From: Bacteroidota bacterium
Lineage (GTDB): Bacteria; Bacteroidota; Ignavibacteria; Kapaibacteriales; NICIL-2
Assembly (NCBI GenBank): GCA_019695345.1
Contig: JAIBAE010000003.1
Coordinates: 62,001-126,000, forward strand
Length of the DNA: 64,000 nt
Direction: 5' to 3'
Shown: piece by piece, positions 36,593-45,791 of the stretch
Layout: the number at the start of each line of letters is the position of its first letter
How positions within the stretch are numbered: the stretch's first letter is position 1
Made by a program: the position numbers and the translations under genes
The notes under the pieces: generated by a model
Database searches by the model: none
What the model saw: only the letters and a program-made list of their open reading frames with translations
What the model was told of the DNA's origin: nothing

Positions 36593-38197
36593 TCACTTGA
36601 TAGTGTGTAGTGAATTCCATGTTAATCCAAATCGGCGAAGGAATTTTGAAAGGCGATCGGTATCGTTGGTGTTTGCTTTTTTCTCGCGTGTTACACCAAA
36701 AAGTTTTCTTCCTGCTTCGGCGAGTGTTTTGGATTGCAGGCACACGTTTATTACTGACTCCAATTGCATTCTATCGAACAGGTCTAGGTCTTCGATTTGT
36801 TGTTCGGTTAAGTATAGTTCTATAGTGTTGCCTGATGGAGATGATGGATTTTTCCAGCTCTTTTTTAGTCTGATAATTTCTTCCCGCACAATTTCTTCGG
36901 TGATTCTTCCACCAACCGAGAGTGTTGCCATGCGTGTTACGGATGCGTTGAGGTCGCGGAAATTTGCGTTCCATTCTGCTTGTGCAGATTTAGCATATTT
37001 AAGATAGATGTTCTTTGCTTCCGCGTTGAACCGAGCACGCAGATTGTTCTTTTCTGCAAATCGTTCTAATTCATACTCAAGATTAGGTTCAATATCTTCG
37101 GTACGTTGTTTTAAGCCGGGCAAATCAAACGACCACAGATTAATACGTGCAAACAGGTCATCGCGGAAACGTTGCTGAAGAACATCGTTGCGTAAATCGC
37201 GGTTTGTACCAGCAATTAGTTGGAAATCACTATACACTTCTTTATCCGAGCCAACAGGATAGAAACATTTTTCTTCGAGTGCGCGAAGCAACATAGCTTG
37301 TTCATCGCTACCAAGCTCGCCAATTTCATCTAAGAACAGTACGCCACCATCGGCACTGCGAAGAAGTCCTTCGCGGTCGTTCATCGCACCAGTAAACGCT
37401 CCCTTCTTGTGACCAAACAGCGTACTCATTGCCGCATCGCCACGAAGGGTAGCACAGTTAACTTCTACAAATGCACCTTGTACACGGCGCTGCTCTCGCT
37501 TTAGTTGATAAATGCGTTTTGCAAGTTGTGATTTACCCGCCCCTGTTGGACCCATAAGTAACATTGGAGCTGATGAAGCAATGGCAACCTTCTCAATGTG
37601 TTCAATCAATAAGTTAAAAGATTTGTTCTTTGTGTTGATACCGCTTTTAAGAAAAGTAAGACTCTCTTGTGTTTGAAGGGCAAAGCGTTGAGCAATTACA
37701 TCGTAGCGAGATAAATCCAAATCAATGATGGAAAATGTTCCAGCATCTTTACCACGGTCTTCCATCTTTGGTGGAGATAATTGTAACAACCTACCAGGAA
37801 CAAAGTGGGCTTCGGTTAAGAGGAATGAACATATCTGTTGTACGTGGGTGCCGGTTGTGATATTCATGTAGTACTCTTCAGTATCCGGCTTAAAGGAATA
37901 TTCCTTTACAACATCAAACATGGTAGAATACACTTCTTCAAAGTCCCATGGGTCGCGGAAGTCGATACAATGAAGATTGACTTTTGTTTTTGGAGACTCT
38001 TCTTCGATATCCGTCTTTATCTGTTCTGCAAGTTGAGTAAAGCGTTCCTGATGCAGTAATTCTAACCTATCAACACGAAATGCTTTGTGTTGAACCATCG
38101 CAATTGTTGGTCTCCATCTGTCCCAACGTTTATTTGAAATTCCGGCATCAAGTGTTGTACCGAGAAATGATAGAACTACTTTTTTCTTTGTTGGCAT
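36593..38197 (-). CDS. rtcR: RtcR, sigma-54-dependent activator of RNA repair
   Basis: A 534-residue protein, the same size as E. coli RtcR. Residues 1-180 form the CARF-like sensor (VVLSFLGTTLDAG, MNITTGTHVQQICSFLL). The AAA+ domain has Walker A GPTGAGKS at 216-223, the sigma-54 contact loop GAFTGA at 266-271 and Walker B VLFLDE at 286-291. The C-terminal region carries a DNA-binding helix-turn-helix (SKTLAEAGRKLFGVTREKKA). RtcR proteins sense ends of cleaved RNA and switch on rtc genes. It is divergent from the Ro60 gene, whose promoter has a -24/-12 match. A DUF559 gene with repeats lies in the gap. Confidence 0.95.
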   Translation of the reverse strand: MPTKKKVVLSFLGTTLDAGISNKRWDRWRPTIAMVQHKAFRVDRLELLHQERFTQLAEQIKTDIEEESPKTKVNLHCIDFRDPWDFEEVYSTMFDVVKEYSFKPDTEEYYMNITTGTHVQQICSFLLTEAHFVPGRLLQLSPPKMEDRGKDAGTFSIIDLDLSRYDVIAQRFALQTQESLTFLKSGINTKNKSFNLLIEHIEKVAIASSAPMLLMGPTGAGKSQLAKRIYQLKREQRRVQGAFVEVNCATLRGDAAMSTLFGHKKGAFTGAMNDREGLLRSADGGVLFLDEIGELGSDEQAMLLRALEEKCFYPVGSDKEVYSDFQLIAGTNRDLRNDVLQQRFRDDLFARINLWSFDLPGLKQRTEDIEPNLEYELERFAEKNNLRARFNAEAKNIYLKYAKSAQAEWNANFRDLNASVTRMATLSVGGRITEEIVREEIIRLKKSWKNPSSPSGNTIELYLTEQQIEDLDLFDRMQLESVINVCLQSKTLAEAGRKLFGVTREKKANTNDTDRLSKFLRRFGLTWNSLHTIK

Positions 38198-38223: not shown

Positions 38224-38476
38224 TCCCTCACCCGCTTGTTACCACAAGCGACCTCTCCCAAAAGGAGAGGTGAAATGCAATTCCTTCTCCTGTTGGGAGT
38301 AGGAATCCGAAGGAAGGGCGATATAAGTATATTGTAACGGATATTGCTTTTAGTGTTATCCAAGTTTTAGTGACCCTCACCCGCTTGTTACCACAAGTGA
38401 CCTCTCCCAAAAGGAGAGGTGAAATGTAATTCCTTCTCCTCTTGGGAGAAGGTGTCCGAAGGACGGATGAGGGCTA
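38224..38476. repeat. Two copies of a 100-bp palindromic dispersed repeat
   Basis: Each copy reads CCCTCACCCGCTTGTTACCA, GCGACCTCTCCCAAAAGGAG, AATTCCTTCTCC, then GGGAGAAGGTGTCCGAAGGA. The first (38224-38316) is diverged at its end; the second (38374-38476) is complete and ends at the DUF559 stop. It contains the hairpin CCTCTCCC-AAAA-GGAGAGG. Confidence 0.85.
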
Positions 38477-38869
38477 TCGTAGCCTGCGTTGTAGTTCAGA
38501 TCCAATTTGTTCAAGTACGGAATCAATATTATTTAGTACTTCACTATTCCAGAATCTCATTTCATATATGCCAATTGAGTTCAGATACTCTGTTCTCTGT
38601 TTATCATGTTGTTTTTGTTCTACTGAAAGATGTGTGCTTCCATCTAACTCAATTGATAATTCTGCATCATGACAATAGAAATCTAGAATAAATCTATCAA
38701 TTGGATGCTGTCTCCTAAATTTTGCATGTAAAATCTGCCTATTACGAAGAAGCTTCCAAAGCAAATGCTCCGCGTTTGTTTCTCTTTCCCTCAGCGAACG
38801 TGCATTTTCCAATAGATACTCAGGCACCTTATAAGTATTACCATGATATGGGACTAATGGTTCTTTCAT
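38474..38869 (-). CDS. DUF559 endonuclease-like protein
   Basis: Starting at 38869 gives 131 residues; the longer frame to 38929 translates the flanking repeat. The DUF559 pattern is clear: NARSLRERETNAEHLLWKLL, AKFRRQHPIDRFILDFYCHD, LSIELDGSTH, FWNSEVL. It is a Vsr/PD-(D/E)XK-related fold with the Asp and Glu-Leu-Asp-Gly core; biochemical role unknown. It is enclosed by direct copies of the 100-bp repeat (38374-38476 and 38892-38993) and separates rtcR from the Ro60 operon. Confidence 0.88.
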   Translation of the reverse strand: MKEPLVPYHGNTYKVPEYLLENARSLRERETNAEHLLWKLLRNRQILHAKFRRQHPIDRFILDFYCHDAELSIELDGSTHLSVEQKQHDKQRTEYLNSIGIYEMRFWNSEVLNNIDSVLEQIGSELQRRLR

Positions 38870-38891
38870 GGATGTAATATGTTTATTGAAT

Positions 38892-38993
38892 TCCCTCACC
38901 CGCTTGTTACCACAAGCGACCTCTCCCAAAAGGAGAGGTGAAATGCAATTCCTTCTCCGGTTGGGAGAAGATGTCCGAAGGACGGATGAGGGC
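38892..38993. repeat. Third copy of the 100-bp palindromic repeat
   Basis: Near identical to 38374-38476 and in the same orientation, so the DUF559 gene lies between direct repeats. The stretch 38994-39168 after it shows no gene. Confidence 0.85.
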
Positions 38994-39168
38994 TATGAAT
39001 AAGAAAACAAAAGATTTAATTCTTGTGTATTCTATTTTATTCTTATACATGCAAAACTACAAAAATCACTTTTCAACTGTCAGAATAAAATCACAGGTAA
39101 CCTGTAAGCAAGTATTCATGCGGCTTTCAAGGTTGTTAGCACTTTTCAACGGAAAGGCAAAATAAAAG

Positions 39169-39185
39169 TTGGCACGCCCTTTCTA
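39169..39185 (+). promoter_or_regulatory. Sigma-54 (-24/-12) promoter of the Ro60-Y RNA-RtcB operon
   Basis: TTGGCACG at 39169-39176 is a perfect -24 element; after CCCT the -12 element reads TTCT instead of TTGC. Spacing is right. It lies 77 bases before the Ro60 gene and faces away from rtcR, whose protein is a sigma-54 activator. Confidence 0.7.
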
Positions 39186-39261: not shown

Positions 39262-40827
39262 ATGCCAAACAAAACATTGTTCCAGACACTAAAAGGAAAG
39301 TTGTTACCAAAGACAACTACCCGCAATAACGAAAATGCTCCGGCTTATGAGTTTACTCCTAAGCATCAGTTAGCACAACTTGCTGCTACGGGTTGCATTA
39401 GCAATACATTCTACGTTCAGGCAGAAAACCAGTTGGAGAATGTATTGGCATTGGGTGCACAACTTGATGCCGAGTTTGTTGCAAAAACTGCTGTGTATGC
39501 TCGTGAAAAAGGTTACATGAAAGATATGCCTGCATTGTTACTTGCAATGCTAACTGTTAAAGATGTTGAACTTTTGAAACGTACATTCCCACGTGTTGCA
39601 AACAACGGGAAGATGTTGCGCAACTACGTGCAGATTATTCGTTCGGGTGCGGTTGGGCGAAAGTCGTTTGGTTCTGCACCAAAGAGATTGTTGCAAGATT
39701 GGTTTGAAAGCAGAACCGATCGCCAAGTGTTTACGGCGTCCATTGGGCAAACGCCATCAATGGCAGATGTAATCAAAATGGTACGTCCAAAGCCACTAAG
39801 CAAATCGCGTGAGGCGTTGTACGGTTACTTGATTGGAAAAGAGTACAACCAGGAGTTGTTGCCGGAGATTGTTCAACAATTCGAAGCATTTAAACGCGAT
39901 AGAACTTCGCCTGTTCCTGATGTTCCATTTGAGATGTTAACAGCATTGAATCTTGGAACTGCGGAGTGGGTTGAAATTGCAAAGAATGCTTCGTGGCAAA
40001 CAACCAGAATGAACGTAAACACCTTTGCACGACATGGTGTGTTTAACACTACCGGCATGACAGAGGTAGTAGCACAACGATTGCGCAACGAACAGGAAAT
40101 CAGAAAGGCACGTGTATTTCCATACCAGTTATTGGTGGCATACATTAATGCTGATTCTTCAATTCCGTATGAGATACGTGAAGCGTTACAAGATGCGTTA
40201 GAGATTGCAACTTCAAATATTCCGGCTATGGAAGGAAAGGTTGTTGTCGCAACTGATGTTTCGGGTTCAATGCAATCGCCTGTTACTGGATACAGACAAG
40301 GTGCAACCACTAAAGTTCGTTGCATTGATGTTGCGGCTTTGGTTTCTGCATCTATCATGCGAGTAAACAAACAAGCACGTATTATTCCGTTTGAGAATGA
40401 TGTGGTGAATGTTCAGCTAAACTCCAGAGATTCTGTAATCACCAATGCGCAAAAGTTAGCGGCGGTTGGCGGAGGTGGAACAAACTGCTCTGCACCGTTA
40501 GCCAAGCTAAACAAAGAACGCGCAACAGTTGATGTTGTAATCTACGTTTCGGATAATGAATCGTGGGTTGATGCAAACAGAACATGGGGCTATAGCAACG
40601 GAACGGCTGTATTGCGTGAATGGGAAACATTAAAACAACGTAACCCACAGGCAAAGCTGATTAACATTGATATTACGCCTAACTCTACAACGCAGGCAAA
40701 AGATCGTAATGATATACTGAACATTGGTGGTTTCTCGGATAACGTGTTTACAACCATTGCGCAGTTTATTAGCAAAGGAAATGATGCCGAGTTGTGGGTA
40801 AAAGAGATTGAAGCGATTGAGTTATAG
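39262..40827 (+). CDS. rsr: Ro60/Rsr TROVE-domain RNA-binding protein
   Basis: A 521-residue protein with an excellent ribosome-binding site (AGGAGG at 39251). Residues of about 25-320 are the ring of TROVE helical repeats (FVAKTAVYAREKGYMKDMPA, HGVFNTTGMTEVVAQRLRNE). The C-terminal von Willebrand A domain starts VVVATDVSGSMQ with the MIDAS motif D332-x-S-x-S336. Bacterial Rsr binds Y RNAs on its outer surface and works with exonucleases in RNA quality control and stress survival. The Y RNA genes follow at once, and rtcB lies in the same direction. Confidence 0.95.
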   Translation: MPNKTLFQTLKGKLLPKTTTRNNENAPAYEFTPKHQLAQLAATGCISNTFYVQAENQLENVLALGAQLDAEFVAKTAVYAREKGYMKDMPALLLAMLTVKDVELLKRTFPRVANNGKMLRNYVQIIRSGAVGRKSFGSAPKRLLQDWFESRTDRQVFTASIGQTPSMADVIKMVRPKPLSKSREALYGYLIGKEYNQELLPEIVQQFEAFKRDRTSPVPDVPFEMLTALNLGTAEWVEIAKNASWQTTRMNVNTFARHGVFNTTGMTEVVAQRLRNEQEIRKARVFPYQLLVAYINADSSIPYEIREALQDALEIATSNIPAMEGKVVVATDVSGSMQSPVTGYRQGATTKVRCIDVAALVSASIMRVNKQARIIPFENDVVNVQLNSRDSVITNAQKLAAVGGGGTNCSAPLAKLNKERATVDVVIYVSDNESWVDANRTWGYSNGTAVLREWETLKQRNPQAKLINIDITPNSTTQAKDRNDILNIGGFSDNVFTTIAQFISKGNDAELWVKEIEAIEL

Positions 40828-40908: not shown

Positions 40909-41015
40909 GCAGTGAATGCTTGCGGAACTACATGGTTGGATTTTGCGAGTTCGAATCTCGTTGCAGGTATGGTGATACCCTATCTGTAGAATGTTTCGCA
41001 CAACTTTGTCACTGC
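40909..41015 (+). ncRNA. Y RNA-like gene 1
   Basis: The ends GCAGTGA (40909) and TCACTGC (to 41015) pair perfectly. After an internal loop, TGCGGAAC pairs with GTTTCGCA, followed by the conserved TACATG. This is the Ro-binding stem. Inside is a T-arm, GCGAG-TTCGAAT-CTCGT, then a small hairpin GGTATGGTGATACC in the D-arm position. Directly follows the Ro60 gene. Confidence 0.75.
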
Positions 41016-41097
41016 TTTGCTTTTTGATATATCACGATATATGTTGTTTGTACATTGGGGTTTTTATCGGTATGATAAGACGCTATTGTGCTTATGG

Positions 41098-41118
41098 CTT
41101 GGTGCCGTCAGCGATAGC
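41098..41118. repeat. Unpaired right terminal box between Y RNAs 1 and 2
   Basis: CTTGGTGCCGTCAGCGATAGC. No left partner was recognised between the Ro60 stop and this point. It could be the scar of an islet. Confidence 0.5.
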
Positions 41119-41153
41119 AACAATGTACCTAAACAACGAGAGAAGCACATACG

Positions 41154-41293
41154 CCCGAATGCCGATGGAACTACATGCACTACGGATGCCCAGGTCGCAG
41201 GTTCGAGTCCTGCCGGTTGCCCAACTATCGTATATGGCAGCCGTAGCTCAGTTGGTTAGAGCAGGAAAAAACGTTTCATCAATCTTTGTCGGG
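41154..41293 (+). ncRNA. Y RNA-like gene 2 with permuted tRNA mimic
   Basis: End stem CCCGA/TCGGG, then GATGGAAC with GTTTCATC and the conserved ACTACATG. The insert has a T-arm GCAGG-TTCGAGT-CCTGC (41197-41213), then CGGTTGCC, a 14-base loop, GGCAGCCG (8-bp acceptor-like stem) and the D-arm GTAGCTCAGTTGGTTAGAGC. So the 3' half of a tRNA comes before the 5' half, as known for YrlA-type Y RNAs that mimic tRNA. Confidence 0.85.
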
Positions 41294-41410
41294 AAGTGTG
41301 TGTGTTTGAAAACAAAACAGATTAAAACCGAATGCCTGTAGGAGTACATTCATTTTGGCTGAACATCAAAACACATCTCTTACACAAACTTGTCGGTTAC
41401 TTATTAGTAT

Positions 41411-41540
41411 TCATTGCGAATGCAGATCGGAACTACATGCACTGTTAATGCCCGTGTCGCAGGTTCGAGTCCTGCCGGCGAAAGCCGTAGCTCAGTTGGT
41501 AGAGCAGGTTAAAACGTTTCATCAATCTTTGTCGCAATGA
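41411..41540 (+). ncRNA. Y RNA-like gene 3 with permuted tRNA mimic
   Basis: TCATTGCGA pairs with TCGCAATGA at the ends; GATCGGAAC pairs with GTTTCATC with a bulged C, then ACTACATG. The insert has the T-arm GCAGGTTCGAGTCCTGC, a short acceptor-like stem CGGC-GAAA-GCCG closed by a GNRA tetraloop, and the D-arm GTAGCTCAGTTGGTAGAGC. It ends 22 bases before the AAA gene. Confidence 0.85.
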
Positions 41541-41562
41541 TTTTTAAAACAAAACATTATTT

Positions 41563-42675
41563 ATGGAAACACTTTTTACAATAAACAAAAGCGTACAAGC
41601 GGGTGATTTTGATTACGCCGAAATGCTCTTGCTTGCACCACTCATGAAGAAAATGAGGAAAATGGTGATGCCATATTTCTGGACCTTTGAGAGTATTATC
41701 AAAAACGAAATTGATACGAATGATATTCGTGAAGCATTAACCAAGATTGGCTACACCACAACATTTAACGGCAACTGGACGTACATGCTTACTAAGAACT
41801 GCTTGGTAACTTTAGTTGCCGGACGTATTAACGAAACCACACAGTTTTGTAAGTACACCTTTAGCATATTTGCTACATCACGTCCGCATTTGTATGCAAT
41901 GCGCGATACTCTTCGGAACATTGTAACAAATGTTCAGCCGGAGTTGATTTGCGAAACACGTTGGTACTATGGAACTGGCAGTTACGACTACGAAAGTATT
42001 TTTGAAACAATGGAAGATACCATTGTGCCACAAGCATATCCGTTTATTGCCAACTTGGAATCAACCATACAAGAGTACGCACGAAGTAACGAATCTATTT
42101 TGCTCTTGATTGGCGAGCCAGGCACGGGTAAATCCCGATTGATACGATACATCATACGGCAGATGGCAAAGGTTCAGCAAACGCAACATATTAAAGTGTA
42201 TTATACATCGAATGCGACATTGTTGAATGGCGATAGCATTTACAGCGATTTCCGTACAAGCGATGCAAGTGCGTTTATTCTGGAAGATGCCGATTTACAT
42301 TTAAGCTCGCGCGCCGATGGCAACGATGTTATGACGAAACTGCTTTCCAGTTCCGATTCATTCATCTCAGCATCAACGAACAAAAAGATTATTCTTACAA
42401 CTAACTTGGCATCGCTTAACGGCACCGACGACGCTCTCTTGCGTCCCGGACGTTGCTTTGGCGTAATAGAAACACGCAAGTTCACACGCAACGAAGCACA
42501 ACGATTCTTCGAGGCAATTGCCCCCGGCAGAAACATTGTGTTAGAGAACGAACTCTACACACTTGCCGAACTCTACCGGCTTCTATCGCCCCACGCCGAT
42601 TCTGTGCGACAGTTAAGCGATAGCGCACGCTATAAACTAGCAAGCAAACGCAGTATGGGTTTTGCTGCAGTATAA
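41563..42675 (+). CDS. AAA ATPase encoded inside the Y RNA cluster
   Basis: A 370-residue protein. Residues 1-170 are a domain with no recognised family; residues 175-345 are an AAA module: Walker A GEPGTGKS at 184-191, Walker B FILEDAD at 238-244, sensor IILTTNLASLNG and the arginine-finger region LLRPGRCFG at about 292-300, as in BCS1/FtsH-type ATPases. It lies between Y RNA 3 and the islet with Y RNAs 4-6, in the direction of rsr and rtcB, so it is probably under the same promoter. A remodelling factor for Ro60, Y RNA or damaged RNPs is a fair guess, not shown. Confidence 0.85.
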   Translation: METLFTINKSVQAGDFDYAEMLLLAPLMKKMRKMVMPYFWTFESIIKNEIDTNDIREALTKIGYTTTFNGNWTYMLTKNCLVTLVAGRINETTQFCKYTFSIFATSRPHLYAMRDTLRNIVTNVQPELICETRWYYGTGSYDYESIFETMEDTIVPQAYPFIANLESTIQEYARSNESILLLIGEPGTGKSRLIRYIIRQMAKVQQTQHIKVYYTSNATLLNGDSIYSDFRTSDASAFILEDADLHLSSRADGNDVMTKLLSSSDSFISASTNKKIILTTNLASLNGTDDALLRPGRCFGVIETRKFTRNEAQRFFEAIAPGRNIVLENELYTLAELYRLLSPHADSVRQLSDSARYKLASKRSMGFAAV

Positions 42676-42809
42676 CAAATGGGTACTTTGCTACCGCAGA
42701 CCGCACCACACCTTGCATTTCATCTGGTGCGGTCGCCCGCGGGAGAGAAGCTAGGCAATGGGAATTAACAAAATCAAATACATGTTTTACAAACTCATGC
42801 AGTATAAAT

Positions 42810-43664
42810 ATGATTAATATTGAAACTCTATCACGTGTTGAGCAAATATTAAAGAGGACTCTTGAAGGACTATATGGTGGTGAGGTAAAGGAATTTGCAT
42901 CAAGAATGAAGAATAGTAAGGATGCAGACAAGCAAAAAGAGTTTTATATTGAAATGGTACATATTCTTTATTCTAAAAGTCAAGATGAGTCAAATCAACA
43001 ATTATTGAATATTGGCATGGATTTGTGCGATGATTTTATTCAATTCTACAAAAGAGCAAAATTGGAGGGTAATACAAATGCTGATAGTTTACTCCTAAGT
43101 CCATTTATTGACTTTCCCAATATAGAAGGGTCAAAACTACTAAGCAAGTACATGTCATTGATAGAAGCTTCTATTGCATACAAAAGTGCTTTGAATAGCC
43201 TTGATTATATGCTGGTATTCGAATCCTCAAAAAATGTTTTACTTAGTGGTTATGAGTTCATAGATGGTATAATACCATTTATTATAGCTTGCAGAAGCGA
43301 AGATAGTATTACAAATAACAAGGTCGAATCTATTTTTAGATACTCCTTTAAAAGCAAGATTGAGGATCTTAATAATAAAACTTATGATGGAGAATTTCAA
43401 TTATTCAAGAAAATATCTAATAACAATTTTCGAAATGCTCTTGCACACCGAACACTTTTTCATGATAGAGATAATAACATAATCATCTACAATGATAGGG
43501 ATAAGGAATTCAAAATTGACATTGTTACATATACAGCTTATGCGACCGTTTGTTCATACATTCCTTTTAGTTATATGTTGTTTGTTATCATACATTGTTT
43601 CATTATTCAGTATCCTAACGATATTTACCTTTTACCAGAAAGAATACAGAAAGTAATTAAGTAA
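42810..43664 (+). CDS. HEPN-motif protein of unknown function in the RNA-repair locus
   Basis: A 284-residue, AT-rich gene, mostly helical. At residues 207-213 it has FRNALAH, an exact RX4H motif as in HEPN ribonucleases, followed by RTLFHDRDNNIIIYND; the last 50 residues are hydrophobic. HEPN proteins are often RNA-cleaving toxins or antiphage effectors. It is bracketed with three Y RNAs inside islet 10, upstream of rtcB. The HEPN reading rests on one motif and predicted helices; a non-catalytic helical protein is possible. Confidence 0.6.
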   Translation: MINIETLSRVEQILKRTLEGLYGGEVKEFASRMKNSKDADKQKEFYIEMVHILYSKSQDESNQQLLNIGMDLCDDFIQFYKRAKLEGNTNADSLLLSPFIDFPNIEGSKLLSKYMSLIEASIAYKSALNSLDYMLVFESSKNVLLSGYEFIDGIIPFIIACRSEDSITNNKVESIFRYSFKSKIEDLNNKTYDGEFQLFKKISNNNFRNALAHRTLFHDRDNNIIIYNDRDKEFKIDIVTYTAYATVCSYIPFSYMLFVIIHCFIIQYPNDIYLLPERIQKVIK

Positions 43665-43674
43665 ACAAACATCA

Positions 43675-43796
43675 TCCCCGAATGCAATTGGAACTACATG
43701 GTAGAGCGCCAGAACGGAGGTCGTAAGTTCAAATCTTACCTACTGTATTTTTAAGGTAGTAGCTCAGTAAACTGTTTCAGTGAAACTTGTCGGGGA
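43675..43796 (+). ncRNA. Y RNA-like gene 4
   Basis: TCCCCGA and TCGGGGA close the molecule; ATTGGAAC pairs with GTTTCAGT, then ACTACATG. Inside: T-arm GTAAG-TTCAAAT-CTTAC, stem CTACT/AGTAG and a reduced D-like word TAGCTCAGTAAACTG. It starts 11 bases after the HEPN-motif gene. Confidence 0.75.
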
Positions 43797-43810: not shown

Positions 43811-43911
43811 CCCTCACCCGCTTGATGCCTCAAGCGACCTCTCCCAAAAGGAGAGGTAAAATGCAAATCCTTCTCCCGCTGGGAGAAGGTGTCCAAAGGA
43901 CGGATGAGGGA
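43811..43911. repeat. Copy of the 100-bp palindromic repeat between Y RNAs 4 and 5
   Basis: CCCTCACCCGCTTGATGCC, CCTCTCCCAAAAGGAGAGG and GGGAGAAGGTGTCCAAAGGA, as at 38374 and 38892. No gene is attached here. Confidence 0.8.
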
Positions 43912-43928
43912 TATTGAAAATAGAATCA

Positions 43929-44053
43929 TCCCCGAATGCAATTGGAACTACACGGAATAATATACACAGGTTCGATTCCTGTTGTTGTTGCAAAAGTAAC
44001 AGCATGGCTGAGTTGGTTAAGCAATTATCTGTTTCATTAAATCTTGTCGGGGA
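43929..44053 (+). ncRNA. Y RNA-like gene 5
   Basis: The same closing stem as Y RNA 4 (TCCCCGA/TCGGGGA) and the same ATTGGAAC/GTTTCATT helix with ACTACA. The insert has the T-arm ACAGG-TTCGATT-CCTGT, a stem GTTGC-AAAA-GTAAC and a good D-arm GCATGGCTGAGTTGGTTAAGC. The close match to Y RNA 4 suggests duplication. Confidence 0.8.
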
Positions 44054-44065
44054 AAAATTTGCAAC

Positions 44066-44189
44066 ACAACCACATCACGAATGCCGATGGAACTACATGC
44101 ACCTTTTCCGGTTATGCTTGGGGCACCAAGCAGCGGGTTCGAATCCCGTAAGGAAACGTTTCATCAATTGTTGTCGTGATGGTGGTTGT
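44066..44189 (+). ncRNA. Y RNA-like gene 6
   Basis: The closing stem is long: ACAACCACATCACGA with TCGTGATGGTGGTTGT, one bulge. GATGGAAC pairs with GTTTCATC, then ACTACATG. The insert has the T-arm GCGGG-TTCGAAT-CCCGT preceded by a hairpin TGCTTGG-GGCA-CCAAGCA; no D-arm follows. So the effector module differs from copies 2, 3 and 5. Confidence 0.75.
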
Positions 44190-44294
44190 ATATACAGACA
44201 ACATTCTCTCCCGCACAGGAATGTTTGTAATGCAGAAGAGGCGCGGTGCGGTCTGCGATAGCAGAAAACAATTACAAAACATAAAACACAAACA

Positions 44295-45791
44295 ATGAAT
44301 ACAACATTTACAACAACCGAAAATTTAGCTATCTCGCACATGCACGTGGGCGATGGCATTGAACCTATTACCGTAATTGGTACGGAAAGAATCCGTAATG
44401 GATTTGACCCCACGTGTTTAGAGCAAGCAATGAACTCGCGTTTGGCACCGGGCGTTACTAACCTTGTGCTGAACCCCGATGCACATGGCGGTTACGGCGC
44501 ACCTGTTGGGTGTGTGCTTGCATCGCCAACACATATTTATCCCGGACCTGTGGGCGTGGATATTAAATGTTCGATGTCGCTGTTGCAAATGGATATTCCC
44601 GAAGAAGAAATGCGCGATAAGAAAATTCGTAGAGCAATCATCAACGCCATTTGCGAACGCACTCCAACAGGTGCAGGTAAGGGGCAACGCTCGGTACGAA
44701 AATCGCGTAGAGTGTCGTCGGCGCTTGGTAAACAGGTTGCAACCGAAGGCGCATCGTTTGGTGTGTGCGAGCAACTTGGCATTCCATACGAATGGGCAAG
44801 CAAATGCGAGGACTCGTTTCATGTTGGGCACAACGGAACTACCGATGCGTTGGCAGAACGTTTAAACGTATTACTCTCAGCCGGACTTTTTGCAAAGTTT
44901 GACGACAAAGTTGAACAGCTTGGTTCGTACGGCGGGGGAAATCACTTTGGCGAATGTGAGATTGTGCGTATTGCCGAGGGCGCACGCGAACGTGCCGTTG
45001 CCGATACCTTTGGTTTAATGGATAAACGTGTTGCGTTTCTATCGCACTGCGGTTCGCGTGGGTTTGGTTACCAACTTGCACAACACCAATTCCAAAAACT
45101 GCAAACACACTTTGCGCAAAACGGATGGGCGTTCCCCGGTAATGATAAAGAGCTTGTTCATGCAGAGCTTGGCACAACGCAGGCAGATGATTATATCAAT
45201 GATATGTCGCTTGGGGCAAACTTTGCAACGGTAAATCACTTGCTTATCAACGCGCTTGTGCTTGAGGCATTCGAGGAAATTCTTCCCGGAACCAAAGGAC
45301 ACTTGGTCTATTTTATCAGCCACAACATTGCGCGTAAGGAACACATCAACAACACCGAAATGTGGGTTCACCGTAAGGGTGCAACACGCGCATTTCCTGC
45401 GCATCATGAAGGGCTACACAATACACCATTTTATGAAACTGGACATCCCATTTTACTTCCGGGAAATCCGCAGGATGGCTCGGCAGTGATGGTTGCAAAC
45501 CCGGGCGCAGTGGAATCGCTGTATAGTGTTAACCACGGTGCGGGCAGAGCAATGGGTCGCCGTGCCGCCGCACGAACGTTGAATCAACAAGAGGTAGATG
45601 CATCGTTCGAGGATAAGGATATTCTTACCAACTGCCGTGCGTACCCCATTGATGAAGCACCCGCGGCATACAAAGATTTTAACGAGGTACTCCGCTCGGT
45701 TGAAGAAGCCGGACTTGCCACACAGGTAGCAAAACTTAAAGCACGTTTTGTTATCAAAGATTCCGATAAAAGCTTACGCGGAGCAGCATAG
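44295..45791 (+). CDS. rtcB: RtcB-family RNA ligase
   Basis: A 498-residue protein with the RtcB metal and guanylate site motifs in order: GPVGVDIKCSM (Asp and Cys), YGGGNHFGECE (His), HCGSRGFGYQ, ISHNIARKEH, HRKGATRAFPAHHEG, and SLYSVNHGAGRAMGRRAA with the His that becomes GMP-linked. It joins 2',3'-cyclic phosphate or 3'-phosphate ends to 5'-OH ends with GTP and Mn2+. It follows the Y RNA cluster and is the last gene of the rsr-type locus. No RtcA cyclase gene is seen. Longer than E. coli RtcB (about 408), closer to archaeal-type lengths. Confidence 0.95.
   Translation: MNTTFTTTENLAISHMHVGDGIEPITVIGTERIRNGFDPTCLEQAMNSRLAPGVTNLVLNPDAHGGYGAPVGCVLASPTHIYPGPVGVDIKCSMSLLQMDIPEEEMRDKKIRRAIINAICERTPTGAGKGQRSVRKSRRVSSALGKQVATEGASFGVCEQLGIPYEWASKCEDSFHVGHNGTTDALAERLNVLLSAGLFAKFDDKVEQLGSYGGGNHFGECEIVRIAEGARERAVADTFGLMDKRVAFLSHCGSRGFGYQLAQHQFQKLQTHFAQNGWAFPGNDKELVHAELGTTQADDYINDMSLGANFATVNHLLINALVLEAFEEILPGTKGHLVYFISHNIARKEHINNTEMWVHRKGATRAFPAHHEGLHNTPFYETGHPILLPGNPQDGSAVMVANPGAVESLYSVNHGAGRAMGRRAAARTLNQQEVDASFEDKDILTNCRAYPIDEAPAAYKDFNEVLRSVEEAGLATQVAKLKARFVIKDSDKSLRGAA

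Follow-up and report, generated by a model that had tools for sequence, protein, structure and literature searches.

In the genome of a Bacteroidota bacterium (Kapaibacteriales, NICIL-2), the gene for Rsr, the bacterial Ro60 protein, is accompanied by seven Y RNAs, each with a Ro-binding stem and numbered here by position (Y1 to Y7). All lie in the 64,000-nucleotide (nt) stretch analyzed, hereafter the window (contig JAIBAE010000003.1, positions 62,001 to 126,000). Two of them, Y2 (41154-41293, + strand) and Y4 (41412-41539, + strand), are, to near certainty from their sequences, Y RNAs of the YrlA type that carry as their effector module a complete transfer RNA (tRNA) with all four arms, including the anticodon loop. 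It is likewise nearly certain that a loop joins the acceptor ends and that the Ro-binding stem splits the 5' strand of the anticodon stem. A preliminary description of Y2 and Y4, as copies 2 and 3, had correctly recognized YrlA-type tRNA mimicry in circularly permuted order, which is of a known kind (PMC8394870, PMC11472068). It placed the Ro stem at the site of the anticodon stem, which is incorrect for both copies: they retain the anticodon hairpin, and the Ro stem lies within the 5' strand of the anticodon stem, between tRNA positions 28 and 29. The earlier wording instead fits Y6 (43929-44053), where the Ro stem replaces the anticodon loop. Its numbering also implied three Y RNAs, Y3 and the anticodon hairpins having been overlooked.

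The order of T-arm, acceptor-like stem, and D-arm given earlier for both copies is borne out by the sequence coordinates and by matches to the Rfam YrlA model in a cmscan search. In Y2, the T-arm (41197-41213, loop TTCGAGT) is followed by an acceptor stem of 7 base pairs (bp) at 41214-41243 on the + strand (positions 66-72 with 1-7; strands 41214-41220 and 41237-41243), which is present in the RNAfold minimum free energy structure, and then by the D-arm (41246-41262). The joining loop is 16 nt long, or the 14 nt first reported if the next C-G pair is counted and the stem extended to 8 bp. In Y4, the T-arm (41459-41475) precedes a shortened acceptor, CGGC-GAAA-GCCG (41476-41487), and the D-arm (41490-41505); the GAAA loop and the variation of the acceptor loop between the two copies were thus rightly described. 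The suggested comparison with the YrlA family gave significant matches for Y2 (41152-41298, 59.4 bits, E 5.1e-12) and Y4 (41413-41541, 62.8 bits, E 5.2e-13), but both fall below the gathering score of 69 bits (RF02553), and the two are therefore classed as a YrlA-like variant, not as curated members of the family.

Between the 5' strand of the Ro stem and the T-arm, both RNAs contain a small anticodon hairpin. This segment, which reads GCA-CTACGGA-TGC-CC-AGGTC in Y2 and GCA-CTGTTAA-TGC-CC-GTGTC in Y4, corresponds to tRNA positions 29-31, the anticodon loop 32-38, 39-43, and 44-48. Positions 27-28 (GG) come after the D-arm (GAGC-A-GG) and pair with CC at 42-43; from this location and pairing it follows that the point of Ro-stem insertion lies between 28 and 29. 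The anticodon stem accordingly comprises two lower pairs (27-28 with 42-43) and three upper pairs carrying a 7-nt loop with the anticodon intact. In Y2, the hairpin (positions 29-43) occupies 41177-41191 on the + strand, with its loop at 41180-41186, the anticodon ACG at 41182-41184, and the CC pairing with GG at 41264-41265. In Y4, it occupies 41439-41453 on the + strand, with its loop at 41442-41448, the anticodon GTT at 41444-41446, and the CC pairing with GG at 41507-41508. Both 7-nt loops have U33 and R37 and are identical to those of the host tRNA-Arg(acg) (Y2; shared 9-mer ACTACGGAT) and tRNA-Asn(gtt) (Y4; shared 9-mer ACTGTTAAT). Capture from these host tRNAs is not claimed, as the shared 9-mers are only mildly surprising given the C-U-N-N-N-R-A frame.

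The architecture recurs widely. A Ro-binding-stem finder (score of at least 17) was applied to the window and about 90 Rsr loci and returned 305 forward-strand matches, compared with three on the reverse strand and two in shuffled sequence; Ro-stem elements are far beyond chance. Among the distinct segments of at least 15 nt from type A, the class of Y2 and Y4 (n = 58), a hairpin with U33, R37, and a 7-nt loop is present in 42, whereas 1000 shuffles averaged 6.2 and never exceeded 14; in 15 the loop is the same as that of a tRNA from the window's host (0.1 in shuffles). Across 52 distinct RNAs, the anticodon stem has 5 bp in total, divided as 2+3 or 3+2, and positions 27-43, 28-42, 30-40, and 31-39 are all 100% paired with several pair types. 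The pair 27-43 is CG in 32 and GC in 20 (shuffled pairing 53%), and 31-39 pairs in 45% of shuffles. Because the parser admits RNAs with at least two upper anticodon-stem pairs, pairing at 31-39 and 30-40 is partly selected, and the lower pairs and the spacing are the more independent evidence. U33 is found in 44 and A37 in 46 of the 52, and the distance from the end of the anticodon loop to the T stem is 10 nt in 53 of 61 parses.

Once sequences were rotated into tRNA order and CCA was appended, ARAGORN called 50 of the 52 RNAs as tRNAs, with the expected anticodon in 49, whereas it called none in natural order and none among shuffles. Rotated Y2 was called tRNA-Arg(acg), and Y4, with its Asn loop, belongs to the rotated set. 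In previously unused genomes from the family of a Pelomonas carrier, all 14 rotated RNAs were called as tRNAs with the expected anticodon. Random tRNA-like hairpins were rejected as an explanation by the shuffle controls, both of hairpin counts and of ARAGORN calls. Chance and tandem tRNA genes were also rejected, as tRNA genes matched by YrlA models lack a Ro stem. The Rfam YrlA model does fire on adjacent tRNA genes, combining the T-arm of one with the D-arm of the next, and is a source of false positives. Separately, 12 of the 52 anticodon-bearing Y RNAs, in loci of Rhizobium and related groups (L113, L117, L118, L127, L130, L131, L134, L135, L140, L143, L145, and L146), encode CCA directly after position 73, inside the acceptor loop.

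Judging by the parsed arms, the array opens the tRNA at different points: in the anticodon stem (Y2 and Y4), in the anticodon loop (Y6), and in the D loop (Y5). Y6 (+ strand, YrlA 49.6 bits, with an ortholog at L076 4550) has the classical arrangement, with a 7-bp acceptor and a full 5-bp anticodon stem (ATTAT/ATAAT). Y5 (43675-43796, + strand, YrlA only 32 bits) is one of 37 parsed RNAs of type B, in which the order is the 3' half of the D-arm, the anticodon arm, the variable region, the T-arm, a closed acceptor, and the 5' half of the D-arm. In Y5 these include the D-arm 3' half at 43700-43707, a 2-bp remnant of the anticodon arm, the T-arm at 43723-43739, and the D-arm 5' half at 43760-43767. 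The split D stem covaries (12-23 is TA in 25 and GC in 11; shuffled pairing 56%). The anticodon arms of type B are mostly capped by very short loops, a 7-nt loop being parsed in none of the 37; some members are Leu-like with a long variable arm, and some are Pro-like. ARAGORN still recognizes 20 of the 37 as tRNAs after rotation, with the anticodon abnormal in most. Type B departs from the arm order of YrlA, and in eight loci scanned no type-B element had a YrlA or YrlB match at gathering, one scoring as tRNA at 31.7 bits. At least 27 loci carry both the anticodon-bearing and the D-loop class. While permuted tRNA mimicry by YrlA itself is already known (PDB 6CU1), no description of the anticodon-bearing class, of the D-loop-permuted class, or of their co-occurrence in arrays was met in the literature surveyed, which did not extend to the primary YrlA papers; provisionally, both classes and their co-occurrence appear to be new.

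The predicted anticodons vary widely on a near-constant body. Entropy at positions 34-36 is 2.00, 1.45, and 1.54 bits, compared with 0.74 at 33 and 0.62 at 37. The 24 Burkholderiales-type RNAs have a mean diversity of 0.17, which rises to 0.59-0.69 at 34-36; two columns of the acceptor loop are equally variable, so that an especially fast-evolving anticodon is only partly supported. Two Pelomonas Y RNAs (L083 9928 and L098 9930) are identical outside the anticodon loop, which differs at six of seven positions (CTCTTAA and TAACGAC); such unlike loops on an identical body indicate that the anticodon is not tied to the body. A restriction of the triplets to real anticodons is unsupported, given that A34 triplets occur.

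As read from sequence and gene context, the Y RNAs most likely serve Rsr particles as tRNA-shaped arms, within an RtcR/RtcB repair island, and the permuted tRNAs point to decoys or docking handles for tRNA-acting enzymes. In Deinococcus, a Y RNA tethers Rsr to PNPase (PMC8394870, PMC7790460). In Salmonella, RtcR is activated by 5' tRNA fragments with a cyclic phosphate, and the authors of that work suggested that YrlA could competitively inhibit an anticodon nuclease (PMC7790460). An Rsr ring would be held on the stem of each Y RNA, with the tRNA-shaped arm offered to tRNA-gripping proteins. In the mechanism that we prefer, anticodon-bearing arms would bait anticodon nucleases under stress; a bait loop that had been nicked would be kept together by the remaining fold, including the Ro stem, and then resealed by RtcB. 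Arms without an anticodon loop, as in the D-loop-permuted class, would occupy proteins that bind the tRNA body and would escape cleavage. The bait role is tentative and well short of probable. Identity and architecture, which are near certain, and the weak functional part are, taken jointly as one explanation, somewhat favored. Its broadest form is doubtful. In that form, bacterial repair islands would carry sets of complete, Ro-bound tRNAs that differ in where they are opened and that combine a constant body with a rapidly changing anticodon, serving as decoys that can be resealed during an arms race against anticodon nucleases.

Several observations weigh against this reading. RNAfold alone does not favor the full fold of Y2 (z -0.5) or Y4 (z -1.1). 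The variability of positions 34-36 could be neutral, the acceptor loop being as variable. The YrlA of Salmonella has no canonical 7-nt anticodon loop and escaped cleavage by the nuclease assayed (PMC7790460); a bait role therefore cannot extend to every YrlA. In the window's host genome, an anticodon nuclease was not identified. RtcA (PF01137) was also not found in this genome, which is 99.9% complete, although RtcB, RtcR, and Rsr are there and a control search recovers the RtcA of E. coli; the nuclease would therefore have to leave ends in a form acceptable to RtcB. The findings bear on what tRNA mimicry by bacterial Y RNAs does in the cell. If many Y RNAs carry a full anticodon loop and others a tRNA body with a capped anticodon arm, their partners could be predicted by class, and Ro/Y particles would be tied to the tRNA damage pathway sensed by RtcR and repaired by RtcB. 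The array also provides a natural series in which one tRNA fold is opened at three places.

About equally likely as bait is a plain adaptor role, in which the tRNA-like module of an ordinary YrlA only tethers Rsr to PNPase or another tRNA-binding effector and the anticodon hairpin is a roleless relic of tRNA ancestry. Both the Rsr-PNPase tethering in Deinococcus and the tRNA-like fold of YrlA are already known (PMC8394870, PMC7790460). The hairpin also appears dispensable, given that about one-fifth of type A RNAs (18 of 88) have a segment too short for it, and the A34 anticodons that occur are scarcely used by bacterial tRNAs. A relic should decay, however, and here the triplet changes but the split 5-bp stem, U33, and R37 persist in several phyla. 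Type B, moreover, retains the anticodon arm but with a short-loop cap, so that the form of the loop looks selected.

It is very unlikely that these are permuted tRNA genes as in algae, from which the Ro stem would be excised, 28 and 29 joined by RtcB, and the acceptor loop opened by RNase P and 3' processing to give a functional tRNA. All arms are canonical once rotated, RtcB is adjacent, and 12 of 52 encode CCA after position 73. Functional tRNAs are nonetheless argued against by the anticodon being untied to the body, as in L083 and L098, by the A34 triplets, and by Ser and Tyr anticodons on bodies with a short variable arm. Additionally, genes for tRNA-Arg(acg) and tRNA-Asn(gtt) already exist in the host, the Y4 acceptor has just 4 bp and a GAAA loop, and the Ro-binding sequence is conserved. 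A reading of the array as degenerating repeat remnants of tRNA genes beside rsr, devoid of Y RNA function, is scarcely credible: the modules are diverse and partly degenerate (Y1, Y5, and Y7), but the Ro stem is present in all seven, the 305 elements face two or three in controls, and covarying stems contradict decay.

Besides Y2 and Y4, the Rfam scan detected four further YrlA-like elements, starting at 40909, 43675, 43929, and 44074, and the Ro-stem finder added the seventh, Y3 (41326-41398, + strand), between Y2 and Y4. Y1 (40909-41015, + strand, YrlA 41.3 bits, finder score 20) combines the Ro stem with a T-arm (40945-40961) and an acceptor-like hairpin and has no D-arm. Y3 is short, with a Ro stem and a simple loop (finder score 19, both Ro helices in RNAfold). 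Y7 (44073-44181, + strand, YrlA 32 bits) has a 7-bp hairpin with a GGCA loop, a T-arm, and a short closing stem, again with no D-arm; its fold has z -3.34, and the hairpin shows compensatory changes relative to L076 5191. Many Rsr loci also encode short Y RNAs and Y RNAs with only a T-arm. The literature describes the Salmonella operon as rsr-yrlBA-rtcBA, with yrlB and yrlA the sole Y RNAs named; a third Y RNA-like element lies between yrlA and rtcB (L188:924-1037) in a fragment of Salmonella origin that was deposited as a phage record but is probably host DNA. Furthermore, the Myxococcus phage Mx1 (L187, OR576727.2 52915-62561) encodes an Rsr with 48% identity to that of the window, near tRNA-Gly and a peptidyl-tRNA hydrolase gene; the finder used here detected no Y RNA at this locus.

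All seven Y RNAs lie between or beside the genes for Rsr (39262-40827, + strand; TROVE and vWA_Ro60, PF25045 1.4e-21, PF05731 6e-9), an AAA ATPase (41563-42675, + strand; PF00004 3e-8), an accessory open reading frame, and the RNA ligase RtcB (44295-45791, + strand; PF01139 8e-101). Divergent from these is the gene for RtcR, a sigma-54 activator with a CARF-type sensor domain (36593-38197, - strand; NF038308 791 bits, cut-off 650; PF06956 E 1e-76). Eighty relatives of Rsr (55-75% identity) were collected, the closest named relative being a Candidatus Kapaibacterium metagenome-assembled genome (L076). RtcR CARF homologues occur in 44 and RtcB in 33 of 50 loci with full-length Rsr. The AAA ATPase has an ortholog in L076 (75% identity) and none in the other 79 loci, and is so far confined to Kapabacterial loci. 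The accessory frame of 284 amino acids inside the array (42810-43664, + strand) contains the motif RNALAH (Rx4H, HEPN-nuclease-like) and had no Pfam, NCBIfam, or PADLOC match. Its relatives are restricted to two other genomes of the order (about 30% identity), with none in other Rsr loci; it was rejected as a system component owing to this lack of conservation, the fold prediction being useless (pLDDT, the predicted local distance difference test, 35.6). PADLOC returned nothing useful. A putative sigma-54 promoter at 39170-39185 (TGGCACGCCCTTTCTA) was likewise rejected, since matches in the motif scan were no more numerous than chance. A 115-nt palindromic repeat is present in four copies, 82-100% alike (38225-38339, 38374-38488, 38893-39007, and 43811-43925), beside a DUF559 gene (38474-38929) and within the Y array, one copy being a weak whalefall-1 RNA match. 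A shorter element, GGTGCSGTC-GCGATAGCA, is repeated between Y RNAs (41096-41119) and before rtcB (44240-44263), with a similar inverted sequence near 42690-42712.

Among known systems, transfer-messenger RNA is also a bacterial RNA with a partial tRNA mimic, but a family search shows nothing beyond the common T-arm (about 9 bits). Y3 resembles YrlB (RF02565) in size and stem only, being short with a Ro stem and a small loop; the Rfam scan gave no RF02565 match in the window. Circularly permuted tRNA genes of algae and archaea (PMC3978253) share with Y2 and Y4 the 3' tRNA half before the 5' half, a joining intervening loop, and a cloverleaf intact after rotation. They differ in that the ends of Y2 and Y4 lie in a conserved Ro-binding stem, not a processing motif, and in that the amino acid identities of body and anticodon are inconsistent. 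The closest likeness is to YrlA (Salmonella YrlA, PDB 6CU1), an Rsr-bound RNA that adopts a permuted-tRNA fold and undergoes modification by tRNA enzymes (PMC8394870, PMC11472068), namely TruB and a Dus enzyme. Shared with it are the Ro stem with its GAATGC..GGAACTAC / CTTGTCG bulge motifs, the permuted T-arm, closed acceptor, and D-arm, the lower anticodon-stem pairs, and a position beside rsr in an RtcR/RtcB operon. Y2 and Y4 differ from it in adding the upper anticodon stem and the 7-nt loop, an insertion relative to the Rfam consensus, and Y2 in its full 7-bp acceptor; the Salmonella-derived fragment in L188 reads CCTTGTATGG at the equivalent segment and lacks a canonical 7-nt loop. An anticodon-bearing relative (L083 9924-10054) passes the YrlA gathering score, at 75.1 bits.
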